This document shows positions 17,968 through 27,050 of a stretch of 40,078 nucleotides of DNA, one piece after another. Within the stretch, counting starts at the first letter, position 1. Each line of letters begins with the position of its first letter. Source of the DNA: Candidatus Altimarinota bacterium (lineage in GTDB: Bacteria > Patescibacteriota > Gracilibacteria > BD1-5 > UBA6164); the NCBI GenBank assembly GCA_022565555.1, contig JAIUMN010000005.1:1-40078 (forward strand), in the 5' to 3' direction. A program made the translations under genes and the position numbers. The notes beneath the pieces were generated by a model that worked only from the letters and a program-made list of their open reading frames with translations, made no database searches and was not told the DNA's origin.

Positions 17968-19965
17968 TTACTTAAGCGTAAACTCTATACGCATTTTTTC
18001 CATGTCTACTGATATAAGTTCTACTAAAATAGCATCTCCAAACTGGAGTCCTACTCAAGTTTGTTCATTTACTATGCGGTATTCATCTCTCATAGGAGTA
18101 TAGAAAGTTCGAGCGGTATCAATAAATCCTTCAATAGTATTTTCAAGCTCTACAAAAAATCACTTATCGATAATTCATGATATTTTTCCTTTATATACCT
18201 TTCCTATCTTATCAGACATATACTTACACGCTAGCATATCACGAACCTTATATTCCATTTTCTCTGCTTTATCTGTTTTCTCCGAACATATACGCGCTAC
18301 TTTTGGAAGTACTTCTTTATAGTATAACTTACGTTCATGTGAATATTTTTTATCAAGAGATTCCTTAATTATACGATGTATTTGTAAATCAGCGTAACGT
18401 CGTATAGGTGAAGTAAAGTGGCTATAATGAGTGAGAGCAAGTCAGAAATGTCCAAAGTTTTTTTCAGAGTACCGAGCTTTTGCCATCGAACGAAGAACTA
18501 TTTTTTGAAATCAACTCAGCTTTGGATCAAACTGTAGATAACTTAAAGTACTCTGTATATCAAGAGGGGTAATATGTATTCAGGAGAGTTGTTTTCAAAT
18601 ATTAACTCAAAGACGCTCAAGGAGTTTCAAGAATTTTTCTATATCCTCCTCGTCAGGTTCTTCATGAACTCGATATAGAAAAGGAATTTTTGAGAAAAGC
18701 TTTGCAATAGTTTCATTTGCAAGCACCATACAGACTTCTATAAGTTTATATGAATCATAACGCTCATATTGTCTATACTCTATAGGCTTTCATGTATCAT
18801 CAAGGATTATTTTTGTTTCTGGAAAGTCAAAATCAAGACTTCCTCGTGAAATTGCTTTTTTTTCTAAGAAACCTGAGAATTCTTTTAAAAGAAAAATATT
18901 TTTCTGAAGTTCTCAAGAGAGCTCGTTTCAAAACTGAAGGGAATCTCAAAGAGAGATGCTTCAGCTTACTATCTCATCAATTTCTTTATATGTCAGTCTA
19001 TAATCACTCTCTATCACACTTTCATACACTTTTGAGCTTTGGATATTTCACTTCATATCAAGCTCCATCTCACAAGTCATCGTGAGTTTAGACTCTCCAG
19101 GGTGGAGACTACAAAGCCCATTAGATATCTCGGGAGGAAGCATAGGGATAACCTGATCGATAAGATATATGCTCGTTGCACGCTTTCGTGCCTCCCTATC
19201 AAGCGCTGAATTTTCCTTAACATAGTGAGCAACATCTGCAATATGCACATAGAGTCGATATCCATTATCAGTTTTCTCTATACTCAAAGCATCGTCAAGA
19301 TCTTTACTCTCTGCTCCATCTATAGTGTAAGTGAGGCAGTGCTTCAGGTCAGTTCGTATCTTGAGTCTAGACCCTCAAGAGTCTGGACTCTGTAGTACGG
19401 ATACTTCTTGCATAAGCTTCTCTGAGAAAGTCTTTCTTGCTCACATCTCAAAAGCTACAGTATAAATATCTTCCCTCCCCTTTGGGAGCCCTGATAGTGA
19501 CTCCATAATACGTCCTTCAGGATTTTTTCCTTCCCACTTTATAACCTGTACTGCTACTCTTGAACCATCAGTATATCCTCCAATAAACTTTCCTGGGATA
19601 AATATATCTTTTGATATCTTTCTATTATCAGCAATAAGAAAGCCAAACCCTCTTGTAATACGTAATGTTCCAACAATCAAATGTTCACTACGTGATACTA
19701 CACGAGTAATGTGCGCCTCTGATTTTCCTTTAAATATATTTACTACAAAAGCTACTTCATCACCCTCAAGTGCATCAAGTTTCTTGGTCTCATGCACATA
19801 GTATCCTTCTTTTTTTCATGTCGTTTTATCAACTACGTCAACAAAACCAAATCCCCCTTCCATCTGTTTATATACTCAAACAAGTTCATCCTTGTTTAGA
19901 ATGTTTTTTGTTTCCACTTTTGGACTTACAATACTCTTATTATAAAAACCTCTTTTTTTCTGCAT
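17968..19965 (-). CDS. rnr: Ribonuclease R (RNB-family 3'-5' exoribonuclease)
   Basis: A 665-residue RNase II/R enzyme that degrades structured RNA from the 3' end. An N-terminal cold-shock region ([17 protein letters not shown]) is followed by a second OB domain ([15 protein letters not shown]). The RNB catalytic core has [17 protein letters not shown], whose clustered Asp residues bind Mg, then [10 protein letters not shown] and [19 protein letters not shown]. The C-terminus is an S1 domain ([15 protein letters not shown]). It lacks the long basic tail and helix-turn-helix of E. coli RNase R (about 810 residues), so it is a short form. Its ATG sits immediately after the T-tract of a terminator-like hairpin. 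Confidence 0.93.
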
Positions 19966-20045: not shown

Positions 20046-20069
20046 GACCCCCGCACATGTGCGGGGGTC
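20046..20069 (-). terminator. Strong GC-rich terminator of the small GC-rich gene
   Basis: A perfect 24-base palindrome (GACCCCCGCACA / TGTGCGGGGGTC), followed on the minus strand by TTTCTATATT. It is the most GC-rich hairpin in the window. Confidence 0.75.
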
Positions 20070-20077
20070 GAAACGCT

Positions 20078-20260
20078 CTAGCGAGCTCAGCGAGACGGTG
20101 AAGCCTCGGACTCAGCTGGAGCTTCAGAGAATTTGGCCTGCTCGGCTTCATCTGGGGGTTCTATCCCCCTATATCCCCCATGAGGGTTTGGGTCGAATGG
20201 GGCTGTTGGCCCCGTTTCGAGTAGTTCATCCGTGTACAGATCTCTTAGCATAGTTGCCAT
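20078..20260 (-). CDS. Small GC-rich ORF (60 aa) with strong ribosome binding site
   Basis: ATG at 20260 to TAG at 20078-20080 encodes 60 residues; a TGA at 20087-20089 would end it at 57 in the standard code. The product is acidic, Pro/Glu/Ala-rich and probably disordered (for example TGPTAPFDPNPHGGYRG and PPDEAEQAKFSEAPAESE). It has AAGGAG 8 bases before the ATG, a folded leader and its own terminator. Codons such as GCC, GGG, CCC and GAG are unlike the neighbours. The same DNA contains several strong hairpins (for example CGAAACGGGGC with GCCCCATTCG, and GGGGG/CCCCC), so a structured noncoding RNA is a serious alternative. I recognise no family. Confidence 0.5.
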
Positions 20261-20268
20261 TTGGCATT

Positions 20269-20274
20269 CTCCTT
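20269..20274 (-). promoter_or_regulatory. Shine-Dalgarno AAGGAG fixing the start at 20260
   Basis: AAGGAG on the minus strand with 8 bases to the ATG at 20260. The other ATG nearby (20267) is only two bases away, too close to use. Few genes in this window have so clear a ribosome binding site. Confidence 0.6.
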
Positions 20275-20285
20275 GTTTTGCCCCT

Positions 20286-20363
20286 CATACTAGGGAACTT
20301 TCTTGTTAGTCTCCTTCTGGAGACAGCCACTCGGATTATTCCGAGGGATACCTAGTAAGGTAT
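20286..20363 (-). promoter_or_regulatory. Structured RNA leader, possible riboswitch or three-way junction
   Basis: On the minus strand a closing stem ACTAGG/CCTAGT (20351-20356 with 20289-20294) encloses two perfect 6-pair tetraloop hairpins: CTCGGA-ATAA-TCCGAG (20330-20345) and GTCTCC-AGAA-GGAGAC (20309-20324). An alternative hairpin ATACC/GGTAT (20348-20363) uses part of the closing stem, so the two folds exclude each other. The ribosome binding site lies 12 bases downstream. A TTGACT (20379-20384) may be a -35. The fold matches no riboswitch class that I know. Confidence 0.45.
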
Positions 20364-20398
20364 GGTTTTTGTAAGAAAAGTCAAGGAAAATTGTGGAA

Positions 20399-20501: not shown

Positions 20502-20525
20502 ATAAGCCCCCAATTGGGGGCTTAT
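20502..20525 (-). terminator. Terminator after the 46-residue gene
   Basis: A perfect 24-base palindrome (ATAAGCCCCCAA / TTGGGGGCTTAT) followed by TTAATC on the minus strand, 8 bases past the stop codon. Confidence 0.75.
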
Positions 20526-20532
20526 ATGAATT

Positions 20533-20673
20533 TTAATATTTTGTATTTTGTCCGAGTTTTACTGCTTCCTTATACAATTTTCTCGTAATCCAGCTTTCAG
20601 CAAAATAACTTGCTTGAGCTCGTATACTTCAACGCATTCATGTATCAACTAATCTTTTTTCTTTTTTTGTCAT
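20533..20673 (-). CDS. Small basic protein of unknown function (46 aa)
   Basis: ATG at 20673 to TAA at 20533-20535, with two TGA codons read as Gly (VDTGMRGSIRAQ). The product is basic and likely helical (RAQASYFAESWITRKLYKEA). It has a dedicated terminator immediately downstream, which supports a real gene despite its size. I recognise no family. Promoter region would lie between 20674 and 20834, where I see no other convincing gene; a 32-codon plus-strand frame at 20729-20827 there lacks a ribosome binding site. Confidence 0.5.
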
Positions 20674-21156: not shown

Positions 21157-21894
21157 ATGACAACAAACGAAGCACTGATAGTCGTTGACTATCAAAATGG
21201 GTTTATTCCAGAACATGCAAGCGGAGTGAATGAGCTCCCAGTTGAGTGAGGAGAACTTCTTGCTCCTGTAATTAACCAACTCATGCGTGAAACACGCACA
21301 AGATGATGACTCGTTATCGCAACTCGTGATTGGCATCCGAGAGGACATATGTCACTTGCTCGTAACTATATATGAAAAAATCCTTTTGATACGATTACAT
21401 ATAATGAAGTTACCAACGCAAAAAAACATACTCCAAGACTCTGAGAAGAAGCAGAGTTTAGCTTAGAAGACTTACAAGTTGAGCTTTGAGCAGGTATGTG
21501 ACCACAGGTACTTTGGCCAGACCACTGTATCGCAGATACTCCTTGAGCAGAGTACTTTAGATGACTTGATACAGACCTTATAGATCATCATATTATCAAG
21601 TGAGATGATCCAAAAACTGAGATGTATAGTGGATTTTTCTGAAGAGAAATGCGCCAAGATGATACAGTAGTTCGAGTCACTGATATACTCAGAGATGCTT
21701 GAGTTGAAGTCGTAAAAATTGTATGACTCGCAACTGATTTTTGCGTACAGTCTACCGCAGTAGATGCAGTTAAAAATGGGTTTAAAACTATGATAGATAA
21801 GAGAGCTATCGCCTGAGTTATGGTAAAGAGTCCAGAGGACACAGTAGCATATCTCCAAAAACTGAGAGATGAAAAAGGAGTAGAGTATATCTAA
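21157..21894 (+). CDS. pncA: Nicotinamidase
   Basis: A 245-residue isochorismatase-fold amidase that hydrolyses nicotinamide to nicotinate and ammonia, the first step of Preiss-Handler salvage. The catalytic Asp is in VVDYQNGF (about residue 10), the metal site is TRDWHPRGHMSLA (Asp, His, His) and VLWPDHCIADTPGAEY, and the nucleophilic Cys with its cis-peptide is in VVKIVGLATDFCVQSTAVDA. Many of the glycines, including those in GGELL and TRGGL, are TGA. The gene starts the cluster and lies downstream of two NrtR-like boxes. Confidence 0.95.
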
Positions 21895-21915
21895 TTTTAT
21901 TTCACTTTCAGTAAG

Positions 21916-21928
21916 TGTATATATTACA
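21916..21928. promoter_or_regulatory. NrtR-like operator box 3
   Basis: TGTATATATTACA, a perfect TGTA-N5-TACA palindrome, between pncA and pncB and 15 bases before the pncB start. It is preceded by the same AGTAAG as boxes 1 and 2. Confidence 0.6.
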
Positions 21929-21943
21929 ATTAACTATACTATT

Positions 21944-23290
21944 ATGTGAATCATACAAAAACCCTTGGAGTATTTCCCGAGTCTCTCGGGTGCTCCAGAA
22001 GTCAATCATCTCCTTGATACGGATTTTTATAAATTTTCGATGCTCGACTTTATCCTCGCACATCCTGAGTATCGATGACTCAATGTTCGCTGGAGTATGA
22101 AAATACGAAATCCCGACATACAGACGACTCAAGTTATTCCCCGTGAAGTGCTTGAAGCTCAACTCGAGATGACACAAAAAAAAATAACCGGACTTTCGGA
22201 GTCTGAAATCTCCTACCTCAGAGGTATGGAACAAGGAAAATGAGTGAAGATGTTTCGAGAAGAAACCCTTGATTTTCTCAAAGATTTTTCACTTCCTGAT
22301 TATGAAATATGAGAAGAAGTAGGAAATTATACTCTTGATTTTACTGGACCTTGGGAAAGCTCGATGATGTGGGAAATTATTGCTCTGAAAATCATAAATG
22401 CTCTCTATATCTCACAGTATATCAAAAAATCAAATATCTCAGACGTGGAGTTTAGTGAGATGATGCATCAAGTGAGTGGGAGACTCTTTACAGATATCAA
22501 GACTCTTGAAAAAGCTCCTGAGGCAACATTTTCAGAATTTTGAACTCGTAGAGCGATGAGCTCTGTCTGGCAAAGAGAAGTAAATCAGATCCTCGCAGAA
22601 AGACTCCCAGATCAATATATCGGAACTTCAAATATCTTGATTGCAAAAGAGATGTGAGGAGCGAATCCTCGTGGAACCAATGCTCATGAACTCCGCATGA
22701 TACCTACAGCACTTCACGATAGTCCTGAAGCAATTATCTCTGAGATGTACAGTGTAGACAGTAAGTGGCAAAAACATTTTCCAGAACTTGCACTCCTCCT
22801 ACCAGACGCCTATGGAACAAGTTTTTATCTTGCACACACCCCAAGAGAAATTATAGAGGGTCATACAGGGATGCGATTTGACTCTAAAGACCCGATGCAA
22901 GCAATTCCTGAATATATAGATTGGCTTGTAAAACATGGGCAAGACCCTATGGCGAAAGTCTGAATCCCAAGTGATGGGCTCGATGCGCAAAAAGTAGTAC
23001 AAATATCTCAAGCATTTCAACAAAAGCTGGGAAAACTGAGCTTCTGAATCTGAACCAATCTCACCAATAATACCAAAGGAATATTTCCTAAAACTGAAAG
23101 CCTCTGACCATTTGGATCATTCTCAGTAGTAGTAAAACCATCTGCGGTTCAAAGACCAAGTTGAGAATGGGTTTCAACCGTTAAGCTCTCGGATAATCCC
23201 AACAAAGCTATGTGAGAAACAGCGCGGGTTGAGCACTTCAAAAACATCTTTGGGACTCAAGGTATGCAGGCTCTGCAAGTACAAGTATAA
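21944..23290 (+). CDS. pncB: Nicotinate phosphoribosyltransferase
   Basis: A 448-residue type II phosphoribosyltransferase that joins nicotinate and PRPP to nicotinate mononucleotide, with ATP use. Landmarks are LLDTDFYKFSMLDFIL near the N-terminus, the FSEFGTRRAMS motif with SSVW, the histidine-bearing GTNAHELRMIP (the His phosphorylated in the family), and IPSDGLD and GIGTNLTNNT near the phosphate-binding region. The second codon is TGA (21947-21949), so in the standard code the gene could not start here at all. It follows pncA by 49 bases, with an NrtR-like box between, so it may have its own regulated promoter. Confidence 0.96.
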
Positions 23291-23311
23291 TATTTTTTAA
23301 ACTCACAGATT

Positions 23312-24151
23312 ATGAAAACAATATTAGAAGCACCGATGAGGGATCTCAATTATCCTGAAATCGCGAAAGACATCTCAAGGTGGATTTGAGAAAAGTCTCT
23401 TGATAAATGACTCGTTGTATGAGTCTCAGGATGAATTGACTCTGCAGTCGTATCCACACTTTCTGCGATGAGCGGGAAAGCTCTCACCTGCCTTGAGCTG
23501 CCTATTCATCAAAAAACGGATGAAGTAAACAGGGCTCGTGAGCATATAGATTGGCTCCAACAAAAATACACTCAAGTCACAAGACAAATCATAGACCTGA
23601 CGCAAGTATATGATGCTATGCAAGCGCTTCAATATCCAGGAGATGATGAAGCAAGTGAATATCTCTCTGATGTAAATCTGAGATCACGACTCAGAGCTGC
23701 ACAACTCTACGCTACCGCAAATAGAAAAAATGCTCTCGTAGTAGGAACTGGAAACAAAGTAGAAGATTATGGTATAGGATTTTTCACAAAATACTGAGAT
23801 GGAGCAGTTGACCTGAGTCCTATCGGAGAACTCACTAAATCAGAAGTCTATAAACTCGGACGAGAACTCGGAATACACGAGGATATACTGAACGCGAGAC
23901 CAACTGATGGACTTCATCCCAGTGGAGCAACTGACGAAGATCAGATAGGAGCAAGTTATGATGAACTCGAGTGGGCAATGAACGCATATGATATATGAAA
24001 AAGAATCAGTGATTATTCAGGAAGAGCACAAGAAGTAATGAAAATCTACACTGAAAGACACGAAGGGAATGCTCACAAGATGCATATGCCGCCAGTGTAT
24101 CAAGTACTTGACCCTCAGAAGTGACCAGAACACTACGGAGTACATCAGTAA
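23312..24151 (+). CDS. nadE: NH3-dependent NAD+ synthetase
   Basis: A 279-residue enzyme that amidates nicotinate adenine dinucleotide to NAD using ATP. The PP-loop is GVSGGIDSAVVST, whose second Gly is TGA (23432-23434). Other marks are LRSRLRAAQLYATAN, LVVGTGNKVEDYGIGFFTKYGDG, DLSPIGELTKSEVYKLGREL and PTDGLHPSGATDEDQIGASY. There is no N-terminal nitrilase-type glutaminase domain, so ammonia is the amide donor, as in the short E. coli type. The gene starts 21 bases after pncB. Confidence 0.97.
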
Positions 24152-24203
24152 ACCTAGAAAGAAATAAACTTCTTCTCAAAAAATATTTTTTAATAAAGAA
24201 GCT

Positions 24204-24971
24204 ATGAAGCCGCATAACTCACTTGTATACTATGACAAATATAGCTTTGAGAGAAATGCAGGACTGCGTGAATTTATAGAAAATACTTTTATAGATGCCT
24301 TACTTGAGTCTATCAAAGAGCAATGCATCTTGGTACTTGGTGGAGATGGAACGATGCTTCGTGCAATCAGAGAACACTCTAAAAAAGATATACCATTTTT
24401 AGGTATTAATTTCTGACATAAAGGATTTCTTCTCAACCATACGCAGTGGGTATATCCTGATATACCAGAATTTGAAACAAGGCCATATCCACTTCTTGAA
24501 GTAAGAAATAACTGACACAATATCTGAAATGCTTTCAATGATATTAACATCTACTCTCCAGAGTGAAAAGCAATCTCTCTGCATATAGATATATGAAGTG
24601 GGCAAACGGAGTTTTGGGGAGATGGATTGATTCTCGCTACTCCAGCAGGATCTACAGGTCATTCACAATCATATGGATGACCGATACTTCCCCATAGTAA
24701 CAAAAGTCTCGTACTTACTCCTAAGGGAAATATCTCTCCTCAAAAACCAAAATCCCTCGATGATACACGTAAGATTACTATACGAAATATCGGAAGACAG
24801 TATCCACTCTGAGTCAATCTCGATGGTGAGCAAATACTCAAAACAGAACTTAAAGAATCGCTTAAACTAGAAATCAAAAAGTCCCAAAGAGAAGTAAGGC
24901 TTCTCATCGCAGGAACAAGGCGTAATGACTGGGATAATAAAGTCCTGGGCGAGCAAGGATTTAGTGTATAG
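24204..24971 (+). CDS. nadK: NAD kinase
   Basis: A 255-residue kinase that phosphorylates NAD to NADP. It has the signature LVLGGDGTMLRAIREH, then FLGINFGHKGFL, the conserved FNDINIY (NE/D motif) and the glycine-rich ATPAGSTGHSQSYGGPIL, where the family usually has TPTGSTAYS. The C-terminal half is the usual beta-sandwich. It starts 52 bases after nadE. The Thr-Ala in place of Thr-Thr/Pro-Thr and His in place of Ala-Tyr in the Gly-rich loop are mild departures; overall length is slightly short. Confidence 0.93.
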
Positions 24972-25001
24972 ATATTTCTAGCACCAGACACCTCTCTCCA
25001 A

Positions 25002-25068
25002 CTCTCTCCTGCTAGGAGAGAGAGCAAACTACATGTTTTGTAGCCTCTTTCCCTAGATTTAGGGAAAG
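25002..25068. repeat. Array of three hairpins between nadK and nadD
   Basis: Three perfect hairpins in 67 bases: CTCTCTCCT/AGGAGAGAG (25002-25022), CTACA/TGTAG (25029-25043) and CTTTCCCTA/TAGGGAAAG (25047-25068). None is followed by a clear T-tract on the plus strand. They may stabilise or process the mRNA or be a copy of a palindromic intergenic repeat. Confidence 0.5.
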
Positions 25069-25127
25069 AATTAAGATAGAGTGGAGTCTTGTGAGAAAAA
25101 TCAACTTATATTCTCATATTTTTTATC

Positions 25128-25730
25128 ATGCAAACACACGAAATAGCTATTTATTGAGGTGCTTTTAATCCTCCAACTCTCGCGCACGCTCAGGTAGTAG
25201 AGGAAGTCCTTAAGAAACAAGTTGCGAGTCATATCATCCTCTCCCCCAGTGGAGCACGTGAAGATAAAAACTTTGGGATACCTCAAACTGAGCGAAGAAG
25301 ACTTATAGAAATATTTTTTGAAGTACTACAAAGGGATGGGCTCAATGTCTCACTTGATACCTATTTTTTTGAAGGAAAAAATACAGGAATTACTACCACT
25401 GCCTGAGAAGAAAAATATTTCAGAGAACAGCTCTGAGTCTCGGCTGCATTTATCTTTGGATCAGATGTTGCACCAAATATGAGCTGGTGGAGTAATAATC
25501 CTGATAGATTTATCGAAGAGCGACTCAAAAAAATATTTATCCAAAGGCCTGGATTTGCCTTTGATTTTGAAGCAAATGGATTTCGTGAATATACACTTCT
25601 TGATATCCCAGATATGCTCGATATCTCAAGCTCACTTGCTCGGGAAATGCTGAGAAATAAACAGTCAGTAGAAGGGATCTTATTTCCTGAGCTTGCAGAA
25701 GAGATACAAAAACAAAAACTTTATCAATAA
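25128..25730 (+). CDS. nadD: Nicotinate-nucleotide adenylyltransferase
   Basis: A 200-residue nucleotidyltransferase that makes nicotinate adenine dinucleotide from NaMN and ATP. The N-terminal IAIYGGAFNPPTLAHAQVVE has the GxFxPxHxxH-type motif, in a GGAFNPPTLAH form; AAFIFGSDVAPNMSWW corresponds to the GxD substrate loop, and the C-terminal LDISSSLAREML is the ISS(T/S)xxR motif that binds ATP phosphates. The length is that of NadD (about 190-215). Membership in a complete NAD cluster supports NadD over NMN adenylyltransferase. 156 bases with hairpins separate it from nadK. Confidence 0.93.
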
Positions 25731-25741
25731 ATTAAAAATAT

Positions 25742-26293
25742 ATGAAAACCCAAATTATACATCCCTGAAAATGGCTCAATATGGTCGGGGTTGAACATCC
25801 AAATAATCCATGAAAACTCTGGGAATGAGTCTTTCGTGCATGAACTGGACAAGTTGTATGAGCCGTAGTTGAAAATATCTCTCACGAGACCTTCGTACTA
25901 GTAGAGCAATTTCGCCCTCTTGTAGATGCGAGGGTCATCGAGCTCGTTGCGGGACTCGTCGATCCTGAGATGACCCCCGAAGAAGCTATCCTCAAAGAAA
26001 TTCGTGAAGAAACTTGATATACTTGAGGTCAAGCTCATTTTCTGCTCACAGGACCAAAGTCAGCAGGACTCACCAATGAAATGACTCTTGATTACTACGT
26101 ACAAGTTTCTGGAAATCCGTGAGAACAAGAACTGGAAACTTCTGAGAGATGACTCATAGTGCTTGAGTGTCACAATTCCCTTGTAGACCTTAAGCGACTT
26201 CTTGCAAGCGAAGAAAAATCTGGAAAACTCATCTCCCCATGAGTTTGGGCAGGCTTTGGAAAAGCAATGATAGATGGGTATCTAAAAAATTAA
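25742..26293 (+). CDS. Nudix hydrolase, probable ADP-ribose pyrophosphatase
   Basis: A 183-residue Nudix protein. FVLVEQFRPLVDARVIELVAGLVDPE is not quoted in full because of its length; the parts VLVEQFRP and IELVAGLVDP are typical of ADP-ribose pyrophosphatases. The Nudix box runs GLVDPEMTPEEAILKEIREE plus TGY: it keeps the REExxEExG-type glutamates EIREE but has Met where the first Glu usually is and Lys for Arg. ADP-ribose is produced by NAD turnover and is the effector of NrtR, so the neighbourhood fits. It starts 11 bases after nadD. GGQAHFLLTGPKSAGLTNE resembles the ADPRase substrate loop. Confidence 0.85.
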
Positions 26294-26315
26294 TTTGTAA
26301 AATATTTTTTTAGAT

Positions 26316-26337
26316 TACAATAGGTGTATTATTCACA
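26316..26337 (+). promoter_or_regulatory. nrtR promoter -10 and NrtR-like operator box 4
   Basis: TACAAT (26316-26321) is a likely -10, with TTGTAA (26295-26300) 15 bases upstream. TGTATTATTCACA (26325-26337) fits TGT-N7-ACA and covers the transcription start, 11 bases before the nrtR ATG. This suggests autoregulation. Confidence 0.5.
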
Positions 26338-26348
26338 CATACTTCCCT

Positions 26349-27050
26349 ATGCTCATTCCTCAATCACAGCAGTTTGATATCTGGTCAGATAAACTCACAA
26401 TCCCAGTTCTTGCACTTGATATTGTCATATTTACGATTTATAAGTGAGAGCTTTGTATACTCGTTACCAAGCGAAATGAAGATAATATACATGGTTATTC
26501 TCTTCCTGGAAGTATCGTAGCGAAGTGATACTCACTCTCAGAAAACTTTGATGAAGTCCTCAAGCGCAAAACAGGTATCACCCACGGAGTATATAAGGAA
26601 CAACTCTATACATTCTGAGAAAATTCCGCAAGAGATCCAAGAGGTCATGTAATAGCACTTGCATACTACGCTCTTGTTAAGGCTGAAAGCCTTCTCTCAC
26701 AAGTTGATTTTACCTTAGTTGATATCGTGACCGTTGAGCAATTTATGAAACTTCATATATTCTACGAACATGATGAGATATTTCGCTACGCACTCAAGCG
26801 TCTCAAAGACAAGCTCTGATATACTGATATAGTAAAAAATATTCTCTCAGAAGAGTTTCGTATATCTGAAATGCAAAAAATGTATGAAATCATACTTGGA
26901 AGAAGTCTTGATAAACTTAATTTTCAGAAAAAAATATTTTCTCTCGGGATAGTTACAGAAACCTGAAAAAAAGATACAAGTACTAATCGTCCAGCAAAGC
27001 TCTATCGTTTTGTAGAGAAAAAGCAGCTCAAGTTTATCGATATGCTTTAA
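26349..27050 (+). CDS. nrtR: NrtR-type Nudix-related transcriptional regulator of NAD metabolism
   Basis: A 233-residue protein. The N-terminal ~145 residues form a Nudix-like domain (VLALDIVIFTIYKGELCILV, then HGYSLPGSIVAKGYSLSENF) whose catalytic box is lost: EVLKRKTGI replaces REExxEETG, so it should bind but not hydrolyse ADP-ribose. The C-terminal ~80 residues are a winged helix typical of NrtR, with FRISEMQKMYEIILGRSLDK, NFQKKIFSLGIVTETG and RPAKLYRF. NrtR proteins repress NAD genes and release DNA upon binding ADP-ribose. The gene closes the NAD cluster, preceded by its own box and followed by a strong terminator. Confidence 0.93.

Follow-up and report, generated by a model that had tools for sequence, protein, structure and literature searches.

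A probable family of small-protein genes with structured mRNA ends in one genus of Gracilibacteria

What kind of gene is a short GC-rich block in an otherwise AT-rich Gracilibacteria genome? Candidate-phyla bacteria have small genomes, and their small proteins and regulatory RNAs are very little known. The block lies in a window of 40,078 nt (the whole stretch of DNA analyzed, contig C5 of genome G000, an assembly of 1.02 Mb in 49 contigs), whose long reading frames are open only under genetic code 25, with TGA read as glycine. Comparison of all 305-nt segments confirms the GC-rich island proposed from the bare sequence: positions 20046-20350 have a GC content of 0.541 against a window mean of 0.337, the maximum of any segment (0.544) lies two bases away, and the best value elsewhere is 0.462. 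The enrichment extends over the three codon positions of the reading frame within the block (0.66, 0.54 and 0.46), compared with about 0.5, 0.35 and 0.26 in neighboring genes. The island is flanked on one side by rnr (RNB domain, 17968-19965), which is on the same strand, and on the other by a divergent NAD-salvage cluster. This cluster (21157-27050, plus strand) encodes isochorismatase-type, NAPRTase, NAD synthase, NAD kinase and cytidylyltransferase-like proteins, with a gene for an NrtR-like winged-helix regulator at its end. Upstream of the island lies a 46-codon ORF on the minus strand (MTKKEKRLVDTGMRGSIRAQASYFAESWITRKLYKEAVKLGQNTKY under code 25, 20533-20673), for which no Pfam match was found; a GC-rich hairpin (20502-20525) follows it.

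The sequence-only reading of the block described a complete minus-strand unit with a folded leader, AAGGAG, a 60-codon frame and a perfectly palindromic 24-nt terminator. All of these parts can be located, together with a promoter-like element and two further hairpins in the coding part (Table 1). The stop-codon stem is a suboptimal fold in G000, at -25.9 kcal/mol compared with -26.2 kcal/mol for the optimum.

Table 1. Features of the unit at 20046-20384 on the minus strand of the window
Feature	Position	Strand	Description
Promoter-like element	20357..20384	-	TTGACT (20384-20379), 16-nt spacer, TACCTT (20362-20357), then ACTAGGTATCCCT
Leader hairpin H1	20326..20349	-	CC-CUCGG-AAUAAU-CCGAG-U-GG
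Leader hairpin H2	20309..20324	-	GUCUCC-AGAA-GGAGAC; G003, G004 and G005 also have a hairpin here, differing in sequence
Leader hairpin H3	20281..20296	-	CCCU...AGGG, directly before the Shine-Dalgarno sequence; predicted fold, poorly conserved
Shine-Dalgarno sequence	20269..20274	-	AAGGAG, 8 nt before ATG; from sequence; Shine-Dalgarno sequence in 4/4 members
ORF	20078..20260	-	MATMLRDLYTDELLETGPTAPFDPNPHGGYRGIEPPDEAEQAKFSEAPAESEASPSRGAR; 60 codons under code 25 (57 under code 11); one TGA = Gly (20089-20087) under code 25; stop TAG (20080-20078)
C-terminal Ala-Glu-Gln (AEQ) motif	20136..20146	-	Codons GCC GAG CAG form hairpin GCC-GAGCA-GGC
Stop-codon stem	20075..20122	-	GCUC...GAGC with apical hairpin; the other three members also have a stem here, differing in sequence
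Intrinsic terminator	20046..20069	-	GACCCCCGCACATGTGCGGGGGTC, perfect 24-nt palindrome, 10-bp stem, 4-nt loop; short T tail, TTTCTATATT

The unit had also been called an orphan, which it is not, since three relatives in the genus carry it. DNA, pattern and covariance searches covering up to 289 relatives place it in four of the eight genomes of the genus, representing four species (G000, G003, G004 and G005). A DNA search with the unit yields a match of ~70 nt in G004, where the locus proves to be a complete unit, its parts arranged as in G000; the G004 unit used as query in turn picks up G003 and G005, each with a 5' match paired with a 3' one. For the 3' part, a covariance model (R1) recovers the four among 147 relatives with E-values from 6e-17 to 4e-28, plus weak matches; as the model was built from these four, its informative result is that it reveals no further members. 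A second model, of the 5' hairpin H1 (R2), was built from the same four genomes and finds them only, among 40 genomes (E 6e-13 to 4e-11). On reading, the weak R2 matches in other genera are chance matches to ordinary terminators or AT-rich sequence, and a weak R1 match, G004:C6, falls in a region that does not have the architecture of the gene. All four members contain TTGA-N18-TASCTTAMTAG, H1, a Shine-Dalgarno sequence, the in-frame AEQ hairpin, the stop-codon stem and the terminator. In its longer form, the promoter-like element reads TTGANN-N16-TASCTT-AMTAGRYATCCCT with identical spacing in every member. Its -10-like hexamer (20357-20362 on the minus strand, and the same place in G003, G004 and G005) is TASCTT rather than TATAAT, and being non-canonical it is missed by a generic sigma-70 scan, which gives no flag for the element. 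The fixed spacing of TASCTT in all four is possibly that of a special promoter or a regulator site.

Wider searches added no member. The pattern GAGCAGGC...CTCGCTAG occurs in G000 and G004 only, among 289 genomes, and a 5' pattern sought in GTDB contigs, IMG/VR and 194 relatives returned the known members plus isolated matches. The isolated matches that were opened (an IMG/VR contig and a Saprospiraceae contig) have no unit around them, the former lying inside a long phage ORF. R1 applied to 80 of the 86 IMG/VR contigs with a looser 3' pattern detected no member, the best unrelated match having an E-value of 0.03. In a protein search with the 60-residue product, three matches (L006, L007 and L008) fall in other, longer frames, and a weak fourth (L009, E 0.09) lies within a frame of 349 aa. 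Pfam, PHROGs and PADLOC contain no profile matching any of the four family proteins, and phage, plasmid and E. coli records contain no match to the unit. The absence of database matches, together with homologues in congeners, argues against a vector or contaminant. None of the adverse outcomes named beforehand—a known RNA family, a vector, a lack of homologues—was obtained: Rfam has no family matching the unit, and homologues exist in three relatives. The open papers searched do not describe such a unit in Gracilibacteria, and the family is most likely previously undescribed and specific to a lineage within one genus.

The four members occupy three unrelated genomic sites. The G000 copy lies upstream of rnr; the G003 and G005 copies share a site, oriented divergently to rplJ-rplL with tRNA genes and rpmE nearby; the G004 copy is found between a long frame with a HEFGH zinc-peptidase-like motif and a RecQ-like helicase gene (gene names at the latter two sites were assigned by eye). 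No copy is detectable in the remaining four genomes of the genus, of which two are clearly incomplete (68% and 77%). There is no island upstream of rnr in seven congeners, the one GC-rich spot found there being a tRNA-like gene, and no unit is visible by eye upstream of rplJ in six congeners (five besides G000) and four other genera, with the stretch from G007 starting inside rplJ. Recently acquired foreign or mobile DNA would account for this patchiness over three sites, for the fact that the other relatives inspected have no equivalent upstream of rnr or rplJ, and for a GC content of 54% against 34% that is raised at all codon positions. These features weakly suggest the foreign gene that the initial reading had entertained, but no donor was found: phages, plasmids, IMG/VR and other GTDB contigs are without a match, the G003 and G005 copies have only 41-43% GC, and no mobility gene was noticed adjoining the unit. 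We consider recent acquisition unlikely. Because the promoter is common to the congeners, any transfer probably occurred within the lineage. A foreign origin concerns the history of the unit, and is therefore compatible with its being a small-protein gene; it also overlaps with the explanation of the unit as a dual-function RNA, discussed below.

Each member has a Shine-Dalgarno sequence, an ATG and an in-frame AEQ motif in a frame of 60, 61, 52 or 50 codons (G000, G004, G003 and G005, respectively). Compared as protein, the bodies of the G000 and G003 frames reach a Smith-Waterman score of 51, whereas shuffled sequences average 21 and none out of 1000 scores as high; a BLASTP comparison of the pair sees just 9 residues (E 52). 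The best-matching stretch of 12 codons comprises 3 identical codons, 5 with synonymous and 4 with non-synonymous differences, a count that is illustrative because the stretch was selected for its match. The pattern is what a translated frame would give, and on the strength of these sequence comparisons the ORF is very probably translated. The proposal of a gene-like unit encoding a peptide is supported by this in-frame body common to two species.

G003 and G005 contain a second small gene of 53 codons within about 250 nt downstream of the unit (L049:1803-1961, minus strand, and L050:2667-2825, plus strand), with its own Shine-Dalgarno sequence and a terminator similar to that of the unit. Its protein reads MYxxGGxSLFK...EAEQKTT...SQF in G003, with EADHKTT in G005, and R1 matches the gene weakly (E 0.0046 and 0.0015). 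The frame is free of indels over 159 nt, and it diverges more between the two species (18%) than the non-coding DNA beside it (9%). The dN/dS ratio of 1.6 does not differ from 1 (p 0.45), and the substitutions would fit neutral or diversifying change. No other copy was detected in 99 genomes, and PHROGs gives one insignificant match (E 0.26) for a downstream protein. Kinship with the first gene is not established; it rests on position, the terminator and the AEQ residues. This dN/dS ratio, along with ORF bodies that are unrelated in most species pairs, is what a non-coding RNA with a spurious reading frame might display. Such an RNA is very unlikely, however, given a Shine-Dalgarno sequence, ATG, open frame and in-frame AEQ in every member and the synonymous third-position changes within the protein similarity of G000 and G003.

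The variability of the body is most apparent in the closest pair of species. G003 and G005 have RplJ proteins that are 89% identical, their 5' elements are 93% identical, and the sequence after the stop-codon hairpin is 91% identical (122 of 134 columns). The stretch from H2 to the AEQ codons does not align convincingly, and the two bodies score 14, under the 15.6 of shuffled sequences. The 3' scaffold pairs G000 with G004 (0.71) and G003 with G005 (0.79), whereas the only pair of bodies is G000 with G003. An exchange of bodies between scaffolds, or replacement followed by loss of intermediates, would explain this conflict. The unrelated bodies of G003 and G005, combined with the affinity of the G000 3' end to G004, suggest a modular, fast-diversifying small protein in a conserved and partly structured RNA frame; with four members in total, few comparisons underlie the hypervariability, the exchange of bodies and the covariation. 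Single-sequence AlphaFold2 predicts short helices at residues 4-7, 11-15 and 38-44 of the protein, the last corresponding to the AEQ segment, with a mean pLDDT of 65—a low confidence that would be consistent with disorder.

How much of the unit is conserved as RNA? The whole G000 transcript folds better than dinucleotide-shuffled sequences (z -5.4, none of 100 as good). By segment, z is -5.3 with the terminator, -3.2 without it and -2.6 for the leader alone; the terminator accounts for a large part of the folding excess. The long stems that had been pointed out in the coding part hold up insofar as CGAAACGGGGC/GCCCCATTCG is present in the minimum free energy structure, but the body is the least conserved part of the unit. 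Its fold has a z of -2.3 in G000, -1.9 in G003, 0.0 in G004 and -0.2 in G005; it is no better than shuffled sequence in the latter two, so the folding signal seen in the coding part is not common to all members. The ends differ in this respect. In the alignment of H1, 91% of cells are paired, compared with 27-46% when the alignment is slid, and two pairs are changed on both sides. The 3' alignment has 85% of its cells paired, a level reached in 0 of 500 shuffles, with three two-sided pair changes; two of these are in the terminator, whose helix is 100% paired. Covariation in H1 and the 3' part, across four sequences of which two are close, is suggestive, not proof. The motif GCYGAGCAGSC occurs in frame in all four members, and in all of them the AEQ codons and the stop codon are inside hairpins: the UAA stop of G003 and G005 sits in a GUAA apical loop, and in G000 and G004 the frame continues into the 3' strand of the stem. 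That the GAG and CAG codons are invariant although the genome is AT-rich suggests constraint at the RNA level in addition to the protein level. The idea of a highly constrained RNA therefore holds for the ends (H1, AEQ hairpin, stop-codon stem and terminator) and fails for the coding body.

These observations bring up a dual-function RNA, in which the structured ends would work as a regulatory RNA, by base pairing or by binding protein, with the variable peptide as a second product, in the manner of SgrS/SgrT or RNAIII. The RNA ends are the only part conserved across all members, they include the two-sided changes and the embedded AEQ and stop codons, and the transcript as a whole is strongly folded, with whole-transcript z values of -5.4 and -4.5. 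Yet H1, the leader hairpins and the terminator could belong to any stable mRNA, AEQ stays in frame, and the G000 and G003 bodies are alike at the protein level. We regard a regulatory function of the RNA as doubtful. A structured RNA with a short ORF and a stop inside a hairpin is also reminiscent of a divergent tmRNA, and G000 has no tmRNA above the Rfam cut-off. The unit has its own Shine-Dalgarno sequence, ATG and terminator, however, no tRNA-like ends are seen, and the tmRNA covariance model RF00023 does not match it at gathering or permissive thresholds. A stand-in tmRNA is refuted for G003, G004 and G005, each of which has a separate tmRNA besides the unit, and we give this explanation practically no weight. 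A tmRNA is found above the cut-off in six of the eight genomes of the genus, that of G003 being confirmed by ARAGORN; its absence from G000, which is 97.7% complete, may be an assembly gap.

We conclude that the unit is probably a stand-alone, monocistronic gene for a small protein, a member of a lineage-specific family with a stable, structured mRNA. The conserved promoter would give rise to a transcript of ~300 nt, with H1 closing its 5' end and the stop-codon stem and terminator closing its 3' end. The closed ends probably confer stability, and perhaps control translation. The sequence strongly indicates that AAGGAG would drive translation of an acidic, Pro-rich, mostly disordered cytosolic protein of ~60 residues. 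Its short conserved C-terminal AEQ module (AEQAK in G000) probably docks on a common partner, while the N-terminal body, unrelated between most species and seemingly exchanged between scaffolds, is probably under diversifying pressure, for example through conflict with phages, a host cell or a prey cell. A more speculative and rather improbable extension is modular recognition: a structured RNA cassette that swaps small-protein bodies between the fixed 5' element and the AEQ tail, with the conserved ends as the sites of exchange, and that spreads inside one genus of Gracilibacteria, serving in self-recognition or conflict. A gene that keeps its control regions and a short motif while the remainder of its protein is replaced is a sign of diversifying pressure acting in a reduced genome, and the family offers a short, easily tested handle on the nature of that pressure. 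It also indicates that looking for a GC island is a way to spot such a gene when the genome is AT-rich and uses code 25.

Among known systems, the unit resembles the dual-function small RNAs SgrS/SgrT, RNAIII and VcdRP (listed in PMC8672173): it would be a short stable transcript that brings its own promoter and terminator, is structured at the ends and contains a small ORF. In SgrS, too, RNA parts can reportedly be retained while the ORF varies. Unlike these RNAs, it has no known base-pairing target, its frame fills the middle of the transcript, and its ORF body has seemingly been exchanged while the C-terminal motif was retained. With tmRNA (RF00023) it has in common an internal short reading frame ending in a hairpin, but it lacks a tRNA-like domain and a resume codon, and has a Shine-Dalgarno sequence and ATG instead. 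A further comparison is offered by the hypervariable PTD-repeat gene of a BD1-5 gracilibacterium, which encodes a predicted surface protein with synonymous variation in the repeat (PMC6851277). The 60-residue protein of the unit has neither repeats nor an evident membrane segment, in contrast to the PTD-repeat gene, but both appear to be Gracilibacteria genes under diversifying pressure, and the PTD-repeat gene, too, is flanked by long stem-loops.
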